Shown here: positions 8,316-18,554 of the stretch, in pieces | Position numbering within the stretch: the stretch's first letter is position 1 | Layout of the letters: every line of letters begins with the position of its first letter | The notes under the pieces: generated by a model | Database searches by the model: none | What the model saw: only the letters and a program-made list of their open reading frames with translations | Told to the model about the DNA's origin: nothing | Position numbers and translations under genes: made by a program | Assembly: GCA_022180565.1 (NCBI GenBank) | Contig: BQML01000009.1 | Coordinates: 1-64,000, forward strand | Direction of reading: 5' to 3' | Length of the DNA: 64,000 bases | From: Bacteroidia bacterium | Lineage (GTDB): Bacteria > Bacteroidota > Ignavibacteria > UBA10030

Positions 8316-8455
8316 AGCCTGACACGGCAAACAACGACACTCGCCCATTTCATATGGCCCTGTTCAAGCTTTATGAGGAATTGGTTATGCTCGTTCCATC
8401 CCTTCCGGGACACGAAAGCCGTACGGGACGCATTGTTTGCCGTGACGTTCTGTGC
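8316..8455 (+). other. attC-like recombination site (near-complete)
   Basis: The left arm GACACGGCAAACAACG (from ~8320) and right arm CATTGTTTGCCGTGACG are close inverted repeats. The crossover core is CGTTCTG at about 8446-8452, one base off the usual CGTTATG. The outer left end lacks the TAAC core (GCCTGACAC instead). The site separates the porin remnant from the T9SS cargo gene. Confidence 0.65.
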
Positions 8456-8490
8456 CGTTGCCCTTAACCAATTCAGGAAAGGAGACCGCA

Positions 8491-9642
8491 ATGAAACCAT
8501 CGAGCCTTTTTTTCGGCCTGATCATTTTGGCTTTTCCCGCCCAAGCGTTGAAGGGCCAAGTGAGTTCTTTCCCCTACTCACAGGACTTTACTGCAGACCC
8601 CCTTGGAACTGACTGGACTGTGAGCAACAGCGGAGTTGGGGCAAATAACTGGTCATATTCAGCCTCAGATGGCAATACGGGCGGATGCCTTAAGCTCACC
8701 GGCTATATTACCGCGGGGGGAGATGAGAACTACCTCCACTTAGCATTAAATACCTCGAGCGCAACCTTCACTGGTGGTGAGACCTTCACCTACGAGATCT
8801 TTCGTGAAACAGGGGCGCTGGGGGATGCGACGATCGTAGTGCAGCAGAACGCTTCAGGGTCCTTTGTCGATATCCCAGGCTCTTCCTATTCAATAAACAG
8901 TCTCACCGCAACAACCTGGACGACAAAGACCGTGTCTCTGCCACCCGCAATGGAAAACAAGACCAACGTGACACTTCGACTCAAAATCTCAGGGACCCTT
9001 AGTCTGGCCTTCGATAATCTTCGCTTGGATAACGCATCACTCTCAGGTGGTGTTCTCCCCATCCAGATCACATCATTCTCCGCATCCGCAGGTCGGCTTG
9101 ATGTTTTCCTTAAATGGAGTACGGCGACGGAGTTGAAGAACTATGGATTTGAAATCGAGAGACGTCACACTTCGACTTCGCCCAGTCTGCCTCCAACCGG
9201 TTGGTCGAGGATTGGATTTGTCCAAGGAGCAGGGACGAGCAATGCGCCGAGGCAGTATACATTCACCGACCACAATGTTCCTCCCGGTCGTTATGCGTAC
9301 CGCATCAAACAGATCGACCACGACGGAACGATTCACTACTTCGGTGATGCGGAACTTGAGATTGGTCTGGGGCCAAAGAAATTCACGCTTTCCGAAGGTT
9401 ATCCCAATCCTTTCAACCCCCTCACCACTATTGAGTTCACACTCCCCGACGATGGGCGAGCCGTGCTAAGTATTTACAACGCACTCGGTCAGCGGGTGGC
9501 AGTTCTCTTCGATGGCGAGGCGCTTGCCGGTCGAATCGTTCAGGCACAGTTCGACGCAAGCCGGTTCCCGTCGGGCATCTATTTTAGTCGCCTCGAGTAT
9601 GGGGGGAAGGCGCTCACTCGGAAGATTGTGCTCTTGAAATAA
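8491..9642 (+). CDS. Secreted T9SS cargo protein (cassette gene)
   Basis: This encodes 383 residues from ATG 8491, chosen because AGGAAAGGAG precedes it and a signal peptide follows (LFFGLIILAFPAQALKGQ). Residues ~25-195 form a jelly-roll-like domain rich in beta strands. A short fibronectin-like stretch at ~200-300 (LKWSTATELKNYGFEIER, then YRIKQIDHDG) is common just before the tag in this group. The last ~85 residues are a type A T9SS sorting domain (SEGYPNPFNPLTTIEF through GIYFSRLEYG to KIVLLK). It is predicted to be exported and attached or released by T9SS. It follows an attC site directly, so it is cassette cargo. Ligand unknown. Confidence 0.85.
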   Translation: MKPSSLFFGLIILAFPAQALKGQVSSFPYSQDFTADPLGTDWTVSNSGVGANNWSYSASDGNTGGCLKLTGYITAGGDENYLHLALNTSSATFTGGETFTYEIFRETGALGDATIVVQQNASGSFVDIPGSSYSINSLTATTWTTKTVSLPPAMENKTNVTLRLKISGTLSLAFDNLRLDNASLSGGVLPIQITSFSASAGRLDVFLKWSTATELKNYGFEIERRHTSTSPSLPPTGWSRIGFVQGAGTSNAPRQYTFTDHNVPPGRYAYRIKQIDHDGTIHYFGDAELEIGLGPKKFTLSEGYPNPFNPLTTIEFTLPDDGRAVLSIYNALGQRVAVLFDGEALAGRIVQAQFDASRFPSGIYFSRLEYGGKALTRKIVLLK

Positions 9643-10006: not shown

Positions 10007-10480
10007 GTGAAGGAGCTTTCTCTCTTGTTCCTGAAACTCGGCACCATCGCTTTCGGCGGTCCGGCAGCACATATTGCAATGATAGAAGACGAAGTCGTTA
10101 AGCGACGAGCTTGGATTTCCCATGAACACTTCCTCGACCTTCTCGGTGCAACCCATCTCATTCCGGGCCCTAACTCTACCGAGATGGCAATTCACATCGA
10201 TTATCTGCGGGGCAGCGTAAAAGGCCTCTTGCTTGCGGCTTGTGTTTCATCCTGCCTGCCCTCATTATCACCCTGGTTCTTGCTCATCTCTATGTTGCCT
10301 ACGGTTCAACTCCAGAGATGCGACCGTTCGTTGCAGGCATTCAACCTGTCGTTATCTCCATCATTCTTGCCGCTGTACTCCGCTTGAGTAAACCCATTGT
10401 GAAACATCAATTCGGGATAGCTGTCGGGGTGTTGGTTGTCGTTTTGAACCTGGTCGGCGTTACTTCCTTGATGGAGTATT
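10007..10480 (+). pseudogene. chrA: Frameshifted, truncated chromate transporter gene
   Basis: From GTG 10007 the frame reads the ChrA N-terminus: LFLKLGTIAFGGPAAHIAMI, then HEHFLDLLGATHLIPGPNST and EMAIHIDYLRGSVKGLLLAA. At about 10237 the reading frame shifts and continues as CFILPALIITLVLAHLYVAY, then PFVAGIQPVVISIIL. Similarity stops near 10470, after roughly 155 residues of a protein normally about 390 long. ChrA exports chromate (or sulfate in short forms). With a frameshift and only about one half present, this is a remnant. Confidence 0.8.
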
Positions 10481-10957
10481 GTCGATACGGAGGACAACAT
10501 CAACAGGTTGCCTTTTATCGACGAGACGGTCACAGAAGGCTTGGTGACGCTGGAAAAAATGAGAGTCATGAAGTATCGACACAGCAAATTTGGGTGATAA
10601 CGCATGTTCTATGCAATCGCCGCCAATACACTGAGTCCCCATGAGGAGGAGGATTTGGTCATTGCCATAGCCCGTTTTTCTTCAGCTTTTGCCATAGTAC
10701 CGCAGTTTTTTATGATTCCCCGGCCTGTCACCTTTCCGCCGAATCCTCGCCGGGCCGACGCAGGGGCAGAGGTTCTTTGATCCTCGAGGAAAGTCCCATC
10801 AACTTGACAATCGGGCACCCGGCGAGTACATTGTTGGATGCCGAGGCCGCGTTGTTTGCCCGTTTTCCCGCCGCACCGAACACTTCTACGTCCGTTCAAT
10901 TCTTCCACCGTGGACACCCATTCATTTCGTCAATTTCATTATTTCAGGAGAGGCATC
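10481..10957. other. Gene-less boundary between cassette array and chromosome
   Basis: No complete gene is seen. The frame 10484-10597 reads DNINRLPFIDETVTEGLVTL and ends at a TGA; it looks protein-like but has no start and no family I recognise. Other short frames (10777-11064 plus, 10609-10917 minus) lack support. The last 15 bases supply the ribosome site CAGGAGAGG for the gene at 10958. Confidence 0.4.
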
Positions 10958-13900
10958 ATGCGGATTGCGCGCGCGTTGTTGATGCAGATGATTCTTGTGG
11001 CCGCCGCCCTGGCCCAAACGAATGTCGGCGGGACGATCTCCAAAGATTCCACCTGGAGCCTTGACAGAAGCCCCTATATCGTCACCAGCAACGTGAACCT
11101 GAACAGCGGCTTCACATTGACCGTCGATTCCGGCGTCGTTGTACGGTTTCAGCCGGGGACGATTCTCTCTGTGAACGGCACGGCAACGCTCAATGCTCGC
11201 CATGCCACTTTTACGTCGTCACGAGACACGGCGGGCGGAAGTCCGGCCAAGGGAGACTGGAATTACATTCAGATCGGCAACTCGGGAGCGCTTGCCACGG
11301 CAACATTCGACACCTGCTTTATCAAGTACGGGGGCACGTCTTCCTTCCCGTCCAACAACCCTTCGATCTATGTCTACAGCGGGACAGCAACGATTCGGAA
11401 TACGGATATTTCACTTTCAAGAAACCATGGAGTCATGGTCAATACGGCGGCCACGGCGGTCATCGCGAACTCGAACATCTCTCAGTGCGACTGGCCTGCC
11501 TCGTACTGGGGACAAGGTGAAATCAGGTTTGAGGGAGCAAACAACCTTGTCGGGAACACGCACGATGCAATCCGCATTTTCTTCTCCAGCTCAACCGGAC
11601 TGTTTGCTCTCGACACAATCAATATCCCGTATGTGTTTTCATCGAGTTTTACCGTGAATACCGGCAGTACCCTCACTATCCCCACAGGGAGCATTATTAA
11701 ATTCTTCGACTACAGCGGTCTGACGGTCAACGGCGCACTGATTGCCAAAGCCGCTCCGGGCGAGGCAATCTACTTCTCCTCGTACAGGGACGACAATGCG
11801 GGGGGGCTGTTGAGAGATACCAACGCCGACGGCACTCTCACTGCACCCTCTGCGAGCATTTGGGCAGGGATTACGTTCAACGACGCAAGTCTCGACAGCG
11901 TCAGTATCATGAGGAGGTGCAACATCACGTGGGCCGGCTATTCCCAGCAGGGGGGCGTATCCCTGTACAATGCCAGCCCGACCATCGACAGTTGTACGTT
12001 CGCGCAAAATTACTACGGCGTCCTGATGAAGGGTACGTCGAGTCCGGTGTTTTCGAATAACGACATTGGGACCAGCACCATTGTTCCGATAGCCCTTTCC
12101 TTTTCGGCGAATCCTACGTTTGTGAACAATCAATTCTCCGCCTCGGACAATAAGTACGATGCGATCGGGATTCTTTCCGAGACTGTTACGGCAAACTCAT
12201 ATTTGCCCATTCGGTCTGTGACGTCGATTTCCAACGTCACATACCTCATGCTTGGCGCGGTGACGATTCCTCCGTCCTACACACTCACGATTCAGCCCGG
12301 AGTCGTCCTGAAGGCCGCGAATGCGTATGACCGGCTGATCATTCAGGGAAAGATTGTCGCACAGGGCACGCCGGACAGCACGATTGTCTTTACGTCGGTG
12401 CACGACGACCAGTATGGGAATCCGTTCGACACGAACAAGAACGGTAGTATCACCAATCCGAATCGAAGCGACTGGGGGGGCATTACGCTCGAATCGACGA
12501 ACGACACGACATCGATCATCAAATACTGCGTTCTGAGGTACGGCAACACGCCCAGCATTTACTACGGTCAATGGCCCAATGGCGCTTACACGCAGGGGCT
12601 CATCACACTTGTGAACACGAGTGCCACGATCGAAAACGATACCCTGACGGACAATGTGCACGGCATCTATGCATTTCTCGTTTCGAACCCGAAGGTGAAC
12701 AACTGTGTCTTTATCAATTCGCTGTCGACTCCCGTGGCTCTGTCCGTTTCGGCGAACCCCACGTTTTCCGGGAACACGATGCAGAATCCGGGGCTTCGCG
12801 CGCTCGGTCTGATCGGGCACACCGTCACCGCGAACGGGACGGTCTATCGTCGCGATTTCGCAGGGTATTCCAATATCACCTACGTGGTTCTGAGCGATGT
12901 CACAATCAATTCCGGGACTCATGTTGTGATCGATCCCGGGGTCGTCATCAAGATGGCTCAGTCCCAGGGTATCTATGTGAACGGATCGCTTTATGCCAAA
13001 GGGACGGTAGCCGAAGGGCGCATTTCCTTTACGTCGTTCAGAGACGACAATGTCGGTAACCCGCTCGACACGAATGGCGACGGCCTCGGCACATCGCCAA
13101 ACCGCGGGGACTGGACGACGATTCGGTTTCAGGATTCAAGCATTGATTCACTCTGCGTTCTTGACAGCACGGCGATTCGGTACGGAGGAGGATCAAATCT
13201 CGGTCTTGTCACCTTTACCAACGCGAACAGCACGGTGAAGAATTCCATCCTCGCGGAATCAAACTACTACGGAGTGCGCTGTGAAGGGAATTCTGCACCC
13301 GTGATCAGCGGCGTCTCGTTCGAGAGCAACCGGCTCGATCCGATTGCGATGTCACTGCTGTCCAATCCCTCGTTTACGAACATCACGTTCAGCGCGAACG
13401 GCTCCAGCGGAATTCGAATCCTTGAAGGAACCCTCTCCTCCAATGCGACGCTGAATAAGAGAGATGTCGCGGGGATCACCAACATCGCCTACATCGTGGA
13501 GAACCTCACGATCGCACCGAGCGCCGTTCTCACCATCGCTCCGGGGGTTGTCATCAAATTCGGCGCCTATTATCACGGAATCAACGTCGAGGGCGGCCTC
13601 GTGGCGCAGGGGACGGCATCGCAGAAGATCATTTTCACGGCGTTTGCCGACGACTCCAACGGCGGCGATACAAACAACGACGGAAGCACATCGTCCCCCG
13701 CCAAAGGAACCTGGAACAGTATTGACTTCCAAAACAGCAGTAATGATACGCTCAATTCGATGAAACACTGCGTCATCCGGTATGGGGGCGGTTACAATTT
13801 CAATTACGAGTATGGGATGGTGCGAGTCTACAATGCTCGGGTTGCAATCGATTCCTGTGTCTTCACCCTCGGATCGACGTCGGGTGTCGGTATCTTCGGC

Positions 13901-16222
13901 AGCGCCGATCCCGTCATCACGAATTGCGAGATCACGGCCGTCAACCTCACGCCGATTACGATGAGCATGTTTTCCAACCCCACGTTCGGCAACAATACGG
14001 TTCTCAACGTCGCCTTCACGGCTCTGGGGATCAAGCCGGAAAACTATTCTCAGAGCGCAACGATCCCGGTCCGTAATTTCGGAGGATTCAACGGCATCAC
14101 ATATCTGCTCTATGGCACATTGACCGTCAATTCCGGGACTGTCATCACAATTCCGGCGGGAGTTGTCTTTAAGGATTTCGGGTTTTCCGTCAACGGTACC
14201 CTGAAGGTTCTCGGGACGAGCGGAAATCCCGTGGTTTTTACGGACAAGCGGGATGACGGATATGGAAATCCTCAGGACACGAACGGCGACGGTTTTGCAA
14301 CGTTGCCTTCGGTTGGCGCCCAATACCGCATTTTCTACAACGACCAGAGTGTCGACACGGCGAACACTCTTCAGTACGGAGTTTTCCGGTACGCGGATTA
14401 CGGAGTAGATCTCCAGCAGGCGGCTCCGTCGTTCTCGAATTGCCAATTCTTCGGAAACAACTGGGGCATTCGGCTGAACGGCGTCTCGGGTCCGACGATT
14501 ACGGACTGTACCTTCGACAACCTGAACAACGCTCCGTTATTGATGTCCCTCGCGTCAAGTTTCGTTTCCGGAGGCACGAATGTGATCAGCGGGAAGACAT
14601 ATCGCGCCATCGGAATTGTCAACGAAACCCTTGCCGGGGATGCGACGATGACCAAACGGAATTTCGCCGGGGTGAACAACATTCCCTACCTTGTGAGCGG
14701 CCTCACGGTCGGGACAAGTTCGACCTTGTCGATCCAACCGGGTGTCATTGTGAAATTCCGGCAATATGCCACGATGACCGTCCAGCGGGGCTTGCTGGCC
14801 ATTGGGGGCAGTCATCCGGACAGCACTATTGTCTTCACCTCGGAGCTGGATGATTTCTATGGGGGAGACACCAATGCCGATTCCACAGCCACGGCTCCTT
14901 CTCCCGGGTATTGGGCGGGGATCAGGTTCGATGATCTGTCGTACGACCCCGACTGCAGGATCGAACACGCGGTGGTGCGCTACGGCGGATATTTCAACGA
15001 CGGGGCGTTGAAGATGATCAGCGCAAGTCCGACGCTGAAATATGTTTCAATCCGCGACAACTCGAAAGGAATTGTTGCAACGGCATCCTCCAACCCTGTC
15101 ATCAACTATTGTGACATCTACAAGAATTCGGGGTTCGGGATTGAAAATGTGAATAAGACCTTCACTCTCGATGCACGATGGAATTGGTGGGGGAACAATT
15201 CGGGTCCGACGCATGCAGGGAACCCGGGGGGCACGGGAACGACGGTTACAGACTCGGTGAATTACAGTCCGTTCCTTGGCAGCGGTGCGGACAGGCCTCT
15301 TGCCGGCGATGTGAGCCTGAACGGATCCATTCAGGCCTACGATGCCTCGCTGATATTGAAATACCTTGCCGATGGAGTGACAAACCCGCTGAATTCGCTG
15401 CAGCAATCCGTCGGCGACGTGAGCGCAAACGGCTCGTTGACATCGATGGATGCATCGTACATCCTCCAATTTGTTGTCGGAAAGATCAGCATCTTTCCCA
15501 TCGAATTCAATCGCAGTGTCCAGGGAAGCGAATCTGCATTCCAGACCGCGGCCGGTTCGCTGGAACTTTCCGGCGGCGCGGTCACCCGCGGACAGCAGGT
15601 AACGTTGACGCTGTCTGCAACAGGGCTCACGAATATCTACGCCGCGGATCTCGAGCTCGGCTATGATCCGGAATTCCTGCGCCCGGTGTCGGTGGAAACG
15701 GACGGCCTTGCGAGGGGATCGATGATGGAGTACGGAAGCGGAAGTGGAACGCTGGGGATCTTTTTCGCGGCGTCTGAGCCGTTGAAAGGCGATGGCGGGC
15801 TTCTCACGTTGACTTTCGAGGCTCTGCGCGACATTCAGGGGATCCATGACGTACCCATTGTTTTCAAGAAAGCGCTGTTGAATGAAACGAACGCAGTGGC
15901 GCAGTCGACCGGTGCAATCGTTTCCGTGAAGGGTACACCGCTTGACTATCAGCTTCATCAGAACTATCCCAACCCCTTCAATCCGTCGACAGTAATTTCC
16001 TATGCGGTGCCGAGGGACGGTGAGCGGGTCAGGATTGAAATCTATAGCATCCACGGACAGCGCGTACAGGTGCTCGTGGACACCGAACAGCCCGCGGGAG
16101 AATACACGGTAACCTGGGACGGGCGGTCGGTCGACGGCACACGCCTGAGTACGGGCATTTATTTCTATCGCATGAGTGTCGGATCGTTCGTCAGTGTCAA
16201 GAAAATGATCATGGTGAAGTAA
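10958..16222 (+). CDS. Giant secreted beta-helix protein with dockerin, cohesin-like and T9SS domains
   Basis: This encodes 1754 residues from ATG 10958, chosen for CAGGAG upstream and a signal peptide at residues 1-20 (LLMQMILVAAALAQ). Residues ~30-1420 form seven tandem right-handed beta-helix units of about 200 residues. Residues 1450-1510 are a dockerin-like pair (GDVSLNGSIQAYDASLILKY and GDVSANGSLTSMDASYILQF), with Ser and Asn at two usual calcium-ligand positions. Residues ~1520-1660 are cohesin-like (VTLTLSATGLTNIYAADLEL). The last ~85 residues are a T9SS sorting domain (NYPNPFNPSTVISYAV). It is predicted to be on the cell surface. The next gene encodes three cohesin-like domains, a possible binding partner. 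Confidence 0.9.
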   Translation: MRIARALLMQMILVAAALAQTNVGGTISKDSTWSLDRSPYIVTSNVNLNSGFTLTVDSGVVVRFQPGTILSVNGTATLNARHATFTSSRDTAGGSPAKGDWNYIQIGNSGALATATFDTCFIKYGGTSSFPSNNPSIYVYSGTATIRNTDISLSRNHGVMVNTAATAVIANSNISQCDWPASYWGQGEIRFEGANNLVGNTHDAIRIFFSSSTGLFALDTINIPYVFSSSFTVNTGSTLTIPTGSIIKFFDYSGLTVNGALIAKAAPGEAIYFSSYRDDNAGGLLRDTNADGTLTAPSASIWAGITFNDASLDSVSIMRRCNITWAGYSQQGGVSLYNASPTIDSCTFAQNYYGVLMKGTSSPVFSNNDIGTSTIVPIALSFSANPTFVNNQFSASDNKYDAIGILSETVTANSYLPIRSVTSISNVTYLMLGAVTIPPSYTLTIQPGVVLKAANAYDRLIIQGKIVAQGTPDSTIVFTSVHDDQYGNPFDTNKNGSITNPNRSDWGGITLESTNDTTSIIKYCVLRYGNTPSIYYGQWPNGAYTQGLITLVNTSATIENDTLTDNVHGIYAFLVSNPKVNNCVFINSLSTPVALSVSANPTFSGNTMQNPGLRALGLIGHTVTANGTVYRRDFAGYSNITYVVLSDVTINSGTHVVIDPGVVIKMAQSQGIYVNGSLYAKGTVAEGRISFTSFRDDNVGNPLDTNGDGLGTSPNRGDWTTIRFQDSSIDSLCVLDSTAIRYGGGSNLGLVTFTNANSTVKNSILAESNYYGVRCEGNSAPVISGVSFESNRLDPIAMSLLSNPSFTNITFSANGSSGIRILEGTLSSNATLNKRDVAGITNIAYIVENLTIAPSAVLTIAPGVVIKFGAYYHGINVEGGLVAQGTASQKIIFTAFADDSNGGDTNNDGSTSSPAKGTWNSIDFQNSSNDTLNSMKHCVIRYGGGYNFNYEYGMVRVYNARVAIDSCVFTLGSTSGVGIFGSADPVITNCEITAVNLTPITMSMFSNPTFGNNTVLNVAFTALGIKPENYSQSATIPVRNFGGFNGITYLLYGTLTVNSGTVITIPAGVVFKDFGFSVNGTLKVLGTSGNPVVFTDKRDDGYGNPQDTNGDGFATLPSVGAQYRIFYNDQSVDTANTLQYGVFRYADYGVDLQQAAPSFSNCQFFGNNWGIRLNGVSGPTITDCTFDNLNNAPLLMSLASSFVSGGTNVISGKTYRAIGIVNETLAGDATMTKRNFAGVNNIPYLVSGLTVGTSSTLSIQPGVIVKFRQYATMTVQRGLLAIGGSHPDSTIVFTSELDDFYGGDTNADSTATAPSPGYWAGIRFDDLSYDPDCRIEHAVVRYGGYFNDGALKMISASPTLKYVSIRDNSKGIVATASSNPVINYCDIYKNSGFGIENVNKTFTLDARWNWWGNNSGPTHAGNPGGTGTTVTDSVNYSPFLGSGADRPLAGDVSLNGSIQAYDASLILKYLADGVTNPLNSLQQSVGDVSANGSLTSMDASYILQFVVGKISIFPIEFNRSVQGSESAFQTAAGSLELSGGAVTRGQQVTLTLSATGLTNIYAADLELGYDPEFLRPVSVETDGLARGSMMEYGSGSGTLGIFFAASEPLKGDGGLLTLTFEALRDIQGIHDVPIVFKKALLNETNAVAQSTGAIVSVKGTPLDYQLHQNYPNPFNPSTVISYAVPRDGERVRIEIYSIHGQRVQVLVDTEQPAGEYTVTWDGRSVDGTRLSTGIYFYRMSVGSFVSVKKMIMVK
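11050..15210 (+). repeat. Seven ~600-bp coding repeats (beta-helix units)
   Basis: Each unit begins with a block such as FAGYSNITYVVLSDVTINSG and PGVVIK, followed by VNGxLxAxGT, an insertion like DDNVGNPLDTNGDG, then parallel-helix rungs ending SNPSFTN. Unit starts are near 11056, 11603, 12203, 12842, 13451, 14063 and 14648, a spacing of 550-640 bases. Six units carry the DTNxDG-type loop, a possible calcium site; the first lacks it. Units 4 and 5 look most alike; the repeats are diverged at DNA level. Confidence 0.85.
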
Positions 16223-16262
16223 TGATTCACGGTTCATTTGTCGACACGCAAAGGACTTCACC

Positions 16263-18554
16263 ATGAAACCGATGATGAGCGTATTCTTCTTCGCTTGTGC
16301 GCTGATTCTGGCGCCGGCGGCGACTGCCGAGGCGGGTCCCATTCGTCTCGCCCTGCGAGATACGACGGTCGTCGGGGGAACCGTTTTCAGCTATCCCGTC
16401 TATGTGGATAGTTCGGTTACGGGCCTGGGAGTCACATCCTATGAGCTGGAGCTGACTTTTTCCGCCTCGACTCTGTCGTTCGTTGGAATCACCGTAGCCG
16501 GCACAATGACGGAACTCTGGGAGTATACGGACGCGAGTGAGGTTTCTTCGGGTCGCATTCGCATTGCGGGGAGCGGAAGCACGAACCTCTCGGGAACCGG
16601 AATCCTTGTGGTTCTCCGATTCCAGGCCAAGACGTTCTCCTCCACATCCTACGCGTCGGTCAACTTTGCCTCCGCATTGCTGAATGAGGGAACTCCGGCG
16701 GTTGTCACACGGAACGGGACCATCACCGTTCAAGTTCCCCCGTCGATTACAATCTCTCCGGACACATGGACGATGATCAAGGGGGAGACAAAGCAGTTCG
16801 TTGTCTCGGGAGGGAGTGGGCCTTATACGTGGTCTACGACGGATGCCGCGAAGGCATCGATCGATTCGACGGGACTTCTCACGGCGTTGAATATCGGGTT
16901 TGTCCGGGTGATTTGCAGTGACTCCTTCGGCGTTCTTGACACGTCGGGTATCGTTGAGATTCGCGGCCTGAGGCTCTCGATCCGCGACACAAGCGTTTAC
17001 CAGGGGCAGACACTGAGTCTTCCCGTTCAGACCACATCCGTCACGGGGCTGGGCATTACGTCGGGACAGTTGACACTCACGTTCAATCAGAACCTGTGGA
17101 CCGCAACGGGGATCTCTGTGGAGGGGACGATTCTTGCGTCTTCGGCGCCTGAATTCTCCGCCTCCCCGGGCAGTGCATCGATCTCCTTTGCCCAATCGAC
17201 TCCGATCGCGGGGTCGGGAACGTTCGTTGTGGTCAATCTCGAAGCGACCACTTCAACCTACGGTTACTCCAATCTTGGATTTGCGAATGTCGTTTTTAAT
17301 GAGGACCTTCTGGCCACTTCGGCGACGGGAACGATCGGCGTAACTCAGCTGGCGACGCTGAACGTGACACCGGGTGGAACTCAAACACTGGTGAAAGGCG
17401 ATTCGCTCCAGTTCAGCGCCTCGGGCGGCGCGGGTCCGTACACGTGGAGCGTTTCCGATTCCGGCCGGGCGACGATCTCCTCGTCAGGTTTGCTCAAAGT
17501 GCTGAGAGGCGGTTCGGTCACCGTGACTGCGCACGATGCAAACGGTTCCATCGGTTCCAGCGGCACAATCCTGCTCTACGATTTCCGCCTGACAGTGCCG
17601 TCGTTCTCACAGTACGTCGTGACGTCGGCCGATACAGCGATCGAATTCCGATTGATCGTCACCGCCAATGACACGGGTTTCTCTTCCTATCAATTTCGTC
17701 TTTCCTATAGCACGGCGTACAATCTGGTCCTTGACAGTGTCATCACGGCAGGAACGCTCTCCCAGGATTGGAGTATTGCGCCCGGCTATTCCGCCGGCGG
17801 GTTGCAGATTGCCGCCGCCGGTATCAGTCCCGTGACCGCCGCGGGCACGCTGGTGAAACTGAGATTCCGCGTTCCATCAACGACGCCACGACCGTCGACG
17901 ACGTCGATCTCGCTGTCGGAGGTTCTCTTCAACGAAGGGTTTCCGCTTCCCCTCGTGGAAAGCGGGTTTCTCCAGATCCGCTCCACGAATGCAAAGCCGA
18001 TTCTTTCGTCACAGACTCCTGCGAGCCTCGATTCTACGGGCGTCGGATTGCCAACGCAGTTTTCCGTTTCCGCATATGACCCCGATGGAGACGCGCTCAC
18101 TTACTTCTGGAAAGTGAACGGGGTTCTGGAGCAATCGGGAAGTTCCAAAACGTTTACCAGGGTTTTCTCCACTCCATCGCCGAGCACGACTGTTGTTGTG
18201 GTTTTCGAGGATCCCTGGGGATTGAAAGACAGCGCGTCGTGGTCGTTTAGAATCGTGACCGAGGTCGAACGTCTGACAGAGATCGTGCCGGACGATTTTC
18301 TTCTCTACCAGAACTATCCGAATCCGTTCAACCCCAGCACGACGATTCGGTTCATGATTTCCGTCTCTTCGTTTGTGACGCTCACGCTGTACGATCTTCT
18401 TGGAAACGAGCTGGCGGTCCTTGTTTCACAGTGGATGCCGCCGGGCACGTATGCGGTTCGGTGGGAGGCCGGCACCTTTGCAAACGGTACGTATTTCTAC
18501 AGGCTGAGGGCGGGTGAATTTGTGCAGACGCGGAAGCTTGTGCTGTTGAAATAG
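16263..18554 (+). CDS. Secreted protein with three cohesin-like domains, Ig domains and T9SS tag
   Basis: This encodes 763 residues with a signal peptide at 1-24. Cohesin-like domains lie at about 27-157, 236-361 and 441-574. Each opens with a strand pair (IRLALRDTTVVGGTVFSYPV, LRLSIRDTSVYQGQTLSLPV) and contains GLGxTSxxLxLTF. Between them are Big_2-like Ig domains (about 160-234 and 365-439; the motif SGGSGPYTWSTTDAAKASID is typical). An Ig/cadherin-like module follows at ~577-672 (SAYDPDGDALTYFWKVNG). Residues 679-763 are the T9SS sorting domain. It lies 40 bases after the dockerin-bearing gene on the same strand, so the pair is probably co-transcribed. Cohesins bind dockerins, so it is a candidate scaffold. 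Confidence 0.88.
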   Translation: MKPMMSVFFFACALILAPAATAEAGPIRLALRDTTVVGGTVFSYPVYVDSSVTGLGVTSYELELTFSASTLSFVGITVAGTMTELWEYTDASEVSSGRIRIAGSGSTNLSGTGILVVLRFQAKTFSSTSYASVNFASALLNEGTPAVVTRNGTITVQVPPSITISPDTWTMIKGETKQFVVSGGSGPYTWSTTDAAKASIDSTGLLTALNIGFVRVICSDSFGVLDTSGIVEIRGLRLSIRDTSVYQGQTLSLPVQTTSVTGLGITSGQLTLTFNQNLWTATGISVEGTILASSAPEFSASPGSASISFAQSTPIAGSGTFVVVNLEATTSTYGYSNLGFANVVFNEDLLATSATGTIGVTQLATLNVTPGGTQTLVKGDSLQFSASGGAGPYTWSVSDSGRATISSSGLLKVLRGGSVTVTAHDANGSIGSSGTILLYDFRLTVPSFSQYVVTSADTAIEFRLIVTANDTGFSSYQFRLSYSTAYNLVLDSVITAGTLSQDWSIAPGYSAGGLQIAAAGISPVTAAGTLVKLRFRVPSTTPRPSTTSISLSEVLFNEGFPLPLVESGFLQIRSTNAKPILSSQTPASLDSTGVGLPTQFSVSAYDPDGDALTYFWKVNGVLEQSGSSKTFTRVFSTPSPSTTVVVVFEDPWGLKDSASWSFRIVTEVERLTEIVPDDFLLYQNYPNPFNPSTTIRFMISVSSFVTLTLYDLLGNELAVLVSQWMPPGTYAVRWEAGTFANGTYFYRLRAGEFVQTRKLVLLK

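Follow-up and report, generated by a model that had tools for sequence, protein, structure and literature searches.

Noncellulosomal cohesin-dockerin pairs have mostly been catalogued as scattered modules, and their purpose has remained obscure. The locus analyzed here consists of two adjacent genes, P1 and P2, in a 64,000-nucleotide stretch of contig BQML01000009.1 from a bacterium of the Ignavibacteria, referred to below as the window. The dockerin of P1 finds its closest solved sequence match in that of A. cellulolyticus ScaB (4UYP/4UYQ), and the top structural match of the P1 cohesin, CohA, is the A. cellulolyticus ScaC cohesin (4UYQ), with the other matches tied within 1 Z unit. Like the ScaB dockerin, that of P1 carries a small-hydrophobic dyad at loop positions 10 and 11 of both repeats, which are the positions at which two crystallized ScaB variants differ. 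The resemblance of the P1 dockerin and the cohesins to both halves of one solved cognate complex (4uyp/4uyq) supports the view that they are genuine modules. In contrast to ScaB and ScaC, where the modules are located on separate Gram-positive cellulosome scaffoldins, P1 contains both on one β-helix protein predicted to be exported by the T9SS.

The noncellulosomal cohesin of Archaeoglobus fulgidus (2XDH) is among the best profile matches of the cohesins described here. Unlike P1-P2, the system from A. fulgidus is archaeal and comprises neither a T9SS nor a β-helix rod, and we know of no three-cohesin partner in it. The A. fulgidus cohesin-dockerin pair has served as a functional binding module when placed in Escherichia coli (PMC9705933). 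A scaffoldin of “Candidatus Stygibacter” (Cloacimonadota), described from its sequence, resembles P2 in combining tandem cohesins with a T9SS-type tail (PMC8542988). It comprises 3,755 aa with CBM2/CBM3 and is accompanied by several dockerin enzymes, whereas P2 has three cohesins and neither a CBM nor dockerin enzymes. The dockerin/cohesin proteins of ANME archaea are noncellulosomal, as is P1, and some contain one dockerin and several cohesins (PMC9012536), but their architectures are variable, in contrast to the single fixed two-gene layout of P1-P2 over several phyla.

The P1-P2 pair is undescribed in the open-access literature searched. It represents a fixed two-gene unit of one plug and four sockets, found in several phyla, which in some genomes holds every recognizable dockerin and cohesin. 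The pair renders the function of noncellulosomal cohesins directly testable in cultured strains and could yield diverse, orthogonal binding modules. If the dockerin is indeed held by its own cohesin, assembly would be controlled in an unusual manner.

Architecture and recurrence of the gene pair

The features of both genes are listed in Table 1. The coordinates assigned to P1 and P2 in a first-pass annotation of the window agree with the open reading frame list, in which P1 runs from the ATG at 10958 to 16222, with a further in-frame ATG at 10838. That annotation had also described a β-helix followed by dockerin-like and cohesin-like domains in P1 and three cohesin-like domains spaced by Ig domains in P2. 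Pfam cutoffs, AlphaFold2 models, and structure matches concur on a β-helix of ∼1,420 aa, a genuine dockerin, and a genuine cohesin in P1, and the three cohesins of P2 (PF00963, 71.6 bits over three stretches) and their Ig spacers (two Big_2 domains) are likewise confirmed by Pfam and the models.

Table 1. Features of P1 and P2 with their positions in the window
Feature	Position	Strand	Description	Basis
Gene P1	10958..16222	+	1754 aa: β-helix rod - dockerin - cohesin - T9SS tail	ORF, Pfam/NCBIfam, ∼100 homologous loci with the same architecture
P1 probable Sec signal peptide	10958..11014	+	MRIARALLMQMILVAAALA, followed by Q	translation, by eye
P1 right-handed β-helix region	11015..15277	+	∼1,420 aa	PF13229, 8 stretches
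P1 β-helix loop starts	11816, 12428, 13067, 13667, 14276, 14867	+		repeat alignment
P1 type I dockerin	15302..15463	+	duplicated F-hand, loops DVSLNGSIQAYD and DVSANGSLTSMD	PF00404 above cutoff, conservation, AlphaFold2 model
P1 cohesin (CohA)	15587..15916	+	predicted packing with preceding dockerin	PF00963 above cutoff
P1 T9SS C-terminal sorting domain	15965..16210	+		TIGR04183 above cutoff
Gene P2	16263..18554	+	763 aa: Coh-Big_2-Coh-Big_2-Coh-(Ig/PKD-like)-T9SS tail	ORF, Pfam
P2 probable Sec signal peptide	16263..16334	+	...PAATAEA, followed by G	translation, by eye
P2 cohesin 1	16362..16730	+		PF00963 27.8 bits, above cutoff; alignment
P2 Big_2 Ig spacer 1	16743..16913	+		PF02368
P2 cohesin 2	16974..17288	+		PF00963 35.3 bits, above cutoff; alignment
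P2 Big_2 Ig spacer 2	17355..17552	+	boundaries approximate (alignment)	second PF02368 stretch
P2 cohesin 3	17664..17924	+	lowest profile score of the three	PF00963 22.4 bits alone, 56.8 with neighbors
P2 T9SS C-terminal sorting domain	18315..18542	+		TIGR04183 above cutoff

The β-helix of P1 (PF13229, 131 bits over 8 stretches) is built from six repeats of ∼200 aa with a spacing of 197 to 213 aa in the repeat alignment. Each repeat contains a calcium-type loop, D-T-N-x-[DN]-[GS], and the rod is probably calcium stabilized. A comparison by sequence with solved structures revealed no relative of this β-helix.

A survey starting from dockerin and cohesin matches yielded 101 distinct P1-P2 pairs, in 84 of which the downstream gene encodes exactly three cohesins. 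In a profile search of genome contigs, 77 of 80 loci have a cohesin gene immediately downstream of the dockerin gene, in a set biased toward P1 genes with a dockerin by the use of a Doc-Coh alignment as the query. P2 lies on the same strand as P1, 40 bp downstream (median gap across pairs, 43 bp), and the P2 cohesins of homologous pairs are spaced by 210 ± 9 and 206 ± 10 aa. The hosts belong to the Ignavibacteria, Bacteroidales, Balneola, Neomarinimicrobiota, Cloacimonadota, Calditrichota, Kryptoniota, and Zixibacteria. The identical layout in about 100 distinct loci rules out chance. No conserved third gene was found around the surveyed pairs, and scans for promoters and terminators performed no better than chance.

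The T9SS tails noted earlier on both proteins were corroborated. P1 and P2 score above the TIGR04183 cutoff (32.9 against 23 for P2), the mark of T9SS type A cargo, and the Por_Secre_tail profile reaches 29 bits on P1 against a cutoff of 27. The tail region in the model of a homologue matches the C-terminal domain of PorU (6za2; Z 12.2), and the genome contains genes for PorU (934 bits; cutoff, 420) and SprA (about 1,146 bits in total; cutoff, 200). The tails and these two genes point to a surface location of P1 and P2, where the tails would be lost.

Dockerin and cohesin modules

The Dockerin_1 domain of P1 (PF00404) scores 24.5 bits over residues 1449 to 1502, compared to a cutoff of 22.9, and 31.8 bits in the genome scan. 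It shows the organization of a type I dockerin, with two repeats each consisting of a calcium loop (ligands 1, 3, 5, and 12) and a helix seen in the AlphaFold2 model; it is internally symmetric by sequence comparison, and a conserved FP motif is located a short way downstream. Among 81 aligned sequences, the ligands of repeat 1 read DSND in 78, with alanine at loop position 10 in 80 and tyrosine or phenylalanine at position 11 in all. Repeat 2 is similar at the latter two positions, while its loop position 5 is variable, with loss of the calcium ligand there in many homologues. With a mean pairwise distance of 0.39, compared to 0.56 for the adjoining β-helix and 0.63 to 0.75 for the cohesins, the dockerin is the domain conserved most across homologous pairs.

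The genome-wide scan detected one dockerin besides that of P1, located in an Ig-repeat protein; neither protein contains a catalytic Pfam domain. The recognition positions of this second dockerin are I-A and V-L, compared to A-Y and S-M in P1. In four other genomes, the dockerin of the P1 homologue is the sole one detected. For Labilibacter sediminis and Marinilabiliaceae A049, every cohesin match and the single dockerin are confined to the pair.

CohA scores 39.6 bits (PF00963; cutoff, 24.1; residues 1544 to 1652). A genome-wide scan with the same profile found four cohesins for the one dockerin of the pair, all of them in P1 and P2, the third P2 cohesin passing the cutoff only together with its neighbors. 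The AlphaFold2 models reach a mean pLDDT of 92 to 93. The CohA model superimposes on the ScaC cohesin 4uyq_A with a Z score of 16.9 (rmsd 1.9 over 127), and the best structure matches of CohA and of the three P2-type cohesins in a homologue model are solved cohesins (Z 15 to 17.8), all with the nine-strand jelly-roll fold. The region of the homologue model that corresponds to the first P2 spacer resembles a solved Big_2 domain (7r3t; Z 13.2). The exposed 8-3-6-5 sheet of the cohesins, their dockerin-binding face, is not more highly conserved overall (P = 0.41). A Ser/Ala/Asn patch recurs on strands 3, 6, and 8 of the P2 cohesins and largely also in that of P1, and invariant Ala and Asn-Glu positions are common to all four cohesins, which suggests a common ligand.

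Possible binding of the dockerin in cis or in trans

The dockerin and CohA of the window were predicted by AlphaFold2 to pack against each other with a pTM of 0.88 across a linker with a pLDDT below 60, which implies packing in cis at the level of the model. Type I dockerins bind cohesins with high affinity in a calcium-dependent manner, and the P1 dockerin may do so as well; the predicted packing with CohA is an indirect indication. Of 107 distinct dockerins in the fetched loci, a set whose composition is biased by the query, 98 have a cohesin no more than 70 aa downstream; several of the 9 others are accompanied by apparent divergent cohesins at this place. The linker comprises 22 to 44 aa according to profile coordinates. 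The first-pass annotation had proposed a self-assembling surface complex in which the P1 cohesin stays available for further dockerins. The genuine modules, the conserved pairing, and the lack of a rival dockerin in several genomes favor such a complex, but the free cohesin is not supported, given the predicted packing with its own dockerin, the scarcity or absence of other dockerins, and the differing recognition residues of the sole other dockerin in this genome.

We consider it an even call that P1 and P2 constitute a self-contained, T9SS-exported surface assembly kit with a cis-clasped dockerin that exchanges onto the P2 scaffold. The P2 cohesins lack another candidate partner in several genomes because the P1 dockerin is the only one found there, which makes a closed two-component assembly the best reading. 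Here, both proteins would be exported via Sec and then the T9SS, with loss of the tail at the cell surface. P1 would form a long β-helix rod ending in the dockerin-cohesin cassette, and P2 would present exactly three cohesins at a fixed spacing. The dockerin, as the plug of the system, would be clasped by its own cohesin in free P1, as computed, and upon meeting P2 would exchange onto one of its three cohesins. Gene pairing and the absence of other dockerins suggest that, on the outer surface, a single P2 may gather as many as three P1 rods. The least certain step is the role, putatively that of an adhesive or structural coat and not of an enzyme hub. Several points weigh against this reading: binding to P2 would require the release of a dockerin held firmly in cis, many homologues lack a calcium ligand in dockerin repeat 2, the binding sheet of the cohesins shows no overall excess of conservation, and neither the fused model nor the coupling analyses described below gave a clear signal. 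On a wider scale, and tentatively, the pair may represent a hitherto undescribed surface apparatus that is widespread in the FCB superphylum, where a dockerin capped by the cohesin of its own polypeptide is passed on to a dedicated three-socket scaffold, leading to controlled trimerization or polymerization of β-helix rods on the outer membrane.

The computed cis packing, the short linker, and the cohesin close behind nearly every dockerin of the query-biased set would also fit a dockerin-cohesin domain that stays permanently closed, capping the β-helix and positioning the T9SS tail in the manner of a stabilizing module, with the P2 cohesins binding something else or serving as structural Ig-like domains. 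This explanation is doubtful, as a three-cohesin P2 still adjoins P1 across the group and the invariant Ala and Asn-Glu positions of all four cohesins suggest one ligand. The same packing and short linker favor a closed monomer over chains, in which the dockerin of one P1 would swap onto the cohesin of the next to give filaments or mats that P2 caps, nucleates, or branches. Such chains appear unlikely, even though one dockerin and one cohesin per P1 permit head-to-tail exchange and the dockerin has the internal symmetry that has been linked to dual-mode binding (PMC5429695).

Direct coupling between dockerin and P2 cohesins was sought in several ways. A fused P1-P2 model of homologue L089, in which both genes lie in one frame and the stop codon was read through, shows a high pLDDT, a pTM of 0.51, and no readable interface; the Foldseek matches of this long model are mostly Ig-rich proteins and were set aside. 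Mean-field DCA of the dockerin against each cohesin in 80 pairs (∼68 effective sequences) gave no clear coupling. Most of the top interdomain pairs involve the first dockerin column, which is rich in gaps, and for Coh1 and Coh3 some of the top pairs exceed the maxima obtained after shuffling. Mirror-tree correlations are high for every domain and single out no cohesin.

A hub in which P2 recruits dockerin-bearing enzymes, as inferred for the T9SS-tailed scaffoldin of “Candidatus Stygibacter” (PMC8542988), is highly improbable with only two dockerins in this genome, the second in an Ig-repeat protein without a catalytic domain, and only the P1 dockerin in the four other genomes. A cellulosome was rejected for this genome, as no dockerin enzyme was found and Pfam detected no CBM in P2. 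Cohesin and dockerin folds kept merely as nonbinding spacers would agree with a cohesin binding face conserved no more than the other sheet. This is quite unlikely given the conservation of the dockerin above all other domains, with a recognition dyad and repeat 1 calcium ligands that are nearly invariant.

Architecture and spread of the pair

The two genes lie on the same strand, separated by 40 bp, and encode P1, a rod with a dockerin and one cohesin (CohA), and P2, with three cohesins. The right-handed beta-helix of P1 comprises ~1,420 residues in six ~200-residue repeats with DTNxDG-type loops. All domain scores of both proteins exceed curated cut-offs except that of the third P2 cohesin, which passes only with its neighbours counted in.

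Features of the pair, its neighbours and other loci (L-numbers; otherwise window positions or P1 residues)
Feature	Position	Strand	Length	Content
P1	10958-16222		1754 aa	signal-peptide-like start, beta-helix, dockerin, cohesin, T9SS sorting tail
P1 dockerin	residues 1449-1502			profile score above curated cut-off
P1 cohesin (CohA)	residues 1544-1652			profile score above curated cut-off
P2	16263-18554		763 aa	three cohesins with Big_2 spacers, T9SS tail
Small T9SS-tailed protein	8452-9642	+		choice-of-anchor-J-like
Chromate-transporter gene	10007-10644	+		PF02417
Second dockerin protein	L040 4504-7989 (~124.5-128.0 kb on the window's contig)	-	1,161 aa	Big_1/invasin-type repeats, T9SS tail
Repeat-built open frame	L040 10492-19896	-	at least 3,134 aa	repeats, e.g. 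VDYNGGGAQSVAAMNYYHLTLSNAGTKTF
Extra single-cohesin genes	L104 9124-9963; L107 6144-6989; L074 2055-3338; L053 4393-5391

One layout is common to the 40 loci taken from relatives and the 80 taken from named genomes: beta-helix, dockerin, cohesin and T9SS tail, followed by three cohesins with Ig spacers, a variable part and an optional T9SS tail. The cohesin gene lies directly 3' of the dockerin gene in 38 and 77 of these loci, respectively; the search patterns contained the dockerin, so its presence in P1 follows from how the set was assembled, which does not apply to the three cohesins encoded downstream. Exactly three cohesins occur in 84 of 101 pairs (duplicates removed), many of the others being split or cut by contig ends, which fits the idea of the first-pass annotation that P2 is a trivalent scaffold. 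The cohesins of the downstream gene are spaced at 210 ± 9 and 206 ± 10 aa, and the stretch 3' of the third ranges from 27 to 1,362 aa; in two long P2 homologues it contains domains of Ig, cadherin or DUF type and none of a classical enzyme. No conserved flanking genes surround the 101 distinct pairs. In some Cloacimonadota and order-level relatives, a further gene with a single cohesin separates P1 from the three-cohesin gene.

Hosts include Ignavibacteria, Melioribacteraceae, Bacteroidales (Carboxylicivirga, Labilibacter, Paludibacter), Balneola, Kryptoniota, Neomarinimicrobiota, Cloacimonadota, Calditrichota and Zixibacteria. A dockerin-cohesin relative occurs in 29 of 198 high-quality genomes drawn evenly across the phylum, so the system is broad but patchy. 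Among 100 relatives, cohesins and dockerins are each found in 59 (both in 53, either one alone in 6 each, neither in 35), a co-occurrence (Fisher p ~1e-14) for which common ancestry and the presence of both domains on one protein are confounding factors. The pair is real and conserved, and of more interest than the local observation implied.

Predicted folds and recognition residues

The AlphaFold2 model of the P1 dockerin with CohA (226 aa, 73 rows) reaches pLDDT 92.6 and pTM 0.88. By our estimate, a freely moving 70-residue dockerin would give a pTM of ~0.6 (length 226, d0 ~5.6 Å); the value obtained leaves no room for such movement, and AlphaFold2 thus places both domains as a single unit, although the linker between them is floppy. 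The model suggests a cis clasp within P1 and does not fit the earlier proposal that CohA is free for further dockerins. CohA matches the A. cellulolyticus ScaC cohesin 4uyq_A (Z 16.9, rmsd 1.9 over 127 residues), with many other cohesins tied. For the homologous locus L089, a stop-read-through joining the end of P1 to the three P2 cohesins, purely a modelling device, gives pLDDT 92.8 and pTM 0.51; the structure matches are solved cohesins for all four of its cohesins (Z 15-17.8), a solved Big_2 domain for the spacer (Z 13.2) and the PorU CTD for the tail (Z 12.2).

Of all domains in P1 and P2, the dockerin is the best conserved. Its nearest solved relative by sequence is the ScaB dockerin of 4UYP/4UYQ, the complexes that also contain the ScaC cohesin matched by CohA. 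Among 81 sequences, repeat 1 shows the calcium ligands DSND in 78, Ala at loop position 10 in 80 and Tyr or Phe at position 11 in all; repeat 2 has Ala or Ser (80) and Tyr or Phe (73) there and often lacks calcium ligand 5. Positions 10-11 distinguish the two ScaB dockerin variants that were crystallised (SI versus IN) and are also mutated in solved Cel5 dockerins according to the structure titles (S15I/I16N, S51I/L52N). Such internal symmetry accompanies dual-mode binding (PMC5429695). Across the cohesins, strands 6 and 8 carry an invariant Ala and Asn-Glu, and strand 3 a conserved Ser. These strands presumably belong to the dockerin-binding sheet, as in type I cohesins; conservation of the face bearing this patch is not raised as a whole.

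Candidate binding partners and proposed assembly

The host genome spans 3.0 Mb in 111 contigs, with a listed completeness of 100%. It encodes PorU and SprA, and 33 of its proteins carry a T9SS tail above cut-off. Its four cohesins above cut-off all lie within P1 and P2. The genome search for further dockerins, recommended in the first-pass annotation, yields one besides that of P1. It lies 110 kb away on a T9SS protein with Ig repeats, in which no catalytic domain is found. The recognition positions of this second dockerin are unlike those of P1, and one stretch of the protein possibly resembles a divergent cohesin. The long repeat-built frame near its gene is probably a giant surface protein.

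No dockerin other than that of P1 is found in Labilibacter sediminis, Marinilabiliaceae A049, one Melioribacteraceae and one Cloacimonadota genome; in the first two, every cohesin match also lies inside the pair. If P2 cohesins in these genomes have a dockerin partner within the same cell, it can only be that of P1. The modules, folds, pairing and export tags are shown, and most probably P1 rods and a dedicated P2 scaffold form a closed two-component kit. P1 would be exported by the T9SS with its dockerin self-clasped, and the three sockets of P2 could take over this dockerin, giving three rods per scaffold; the complex may be anchored at the surface and play an adhesive or structural role.

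The modules fall into the cohesin and dockerin families by the tests run, and the system is predicted to work like a cohesin-dockerin assembly. It is not a cellulosome, because neither dockerin enzymes in this genome nor a CBM in P2 are found. The genome paper of Melioribacter roseus, a cultured relative, describes cellulases without dockerins (PMC3534657). No description of the two-gene unit was found in the open literature; among described cases, the T9SS-tailed scaffoldin of Ca. Stygibacter (PMC8542988), the archaeal cohesin-dockerin pair of A. fulgidus (PMC9705933) and ANME proteins (PMC9012536) come closest.

Unlike the closed systems elsewhere, one Neomarinimicrobiota genome (locus L136) has 15 dockerin matches versus 7 cohesin matches and may make wider use of the scaffold. 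In the window, a separate small T9SS-tailed protein is encoded 5' of the pair. The chromate-transporter gene directly 5' of P1 is split between two reading frames that overlap, covering positions 2-99 and then 79-146 of the profile, and must therefore be a pseudogene with a frameshift or the product of a misassembly.
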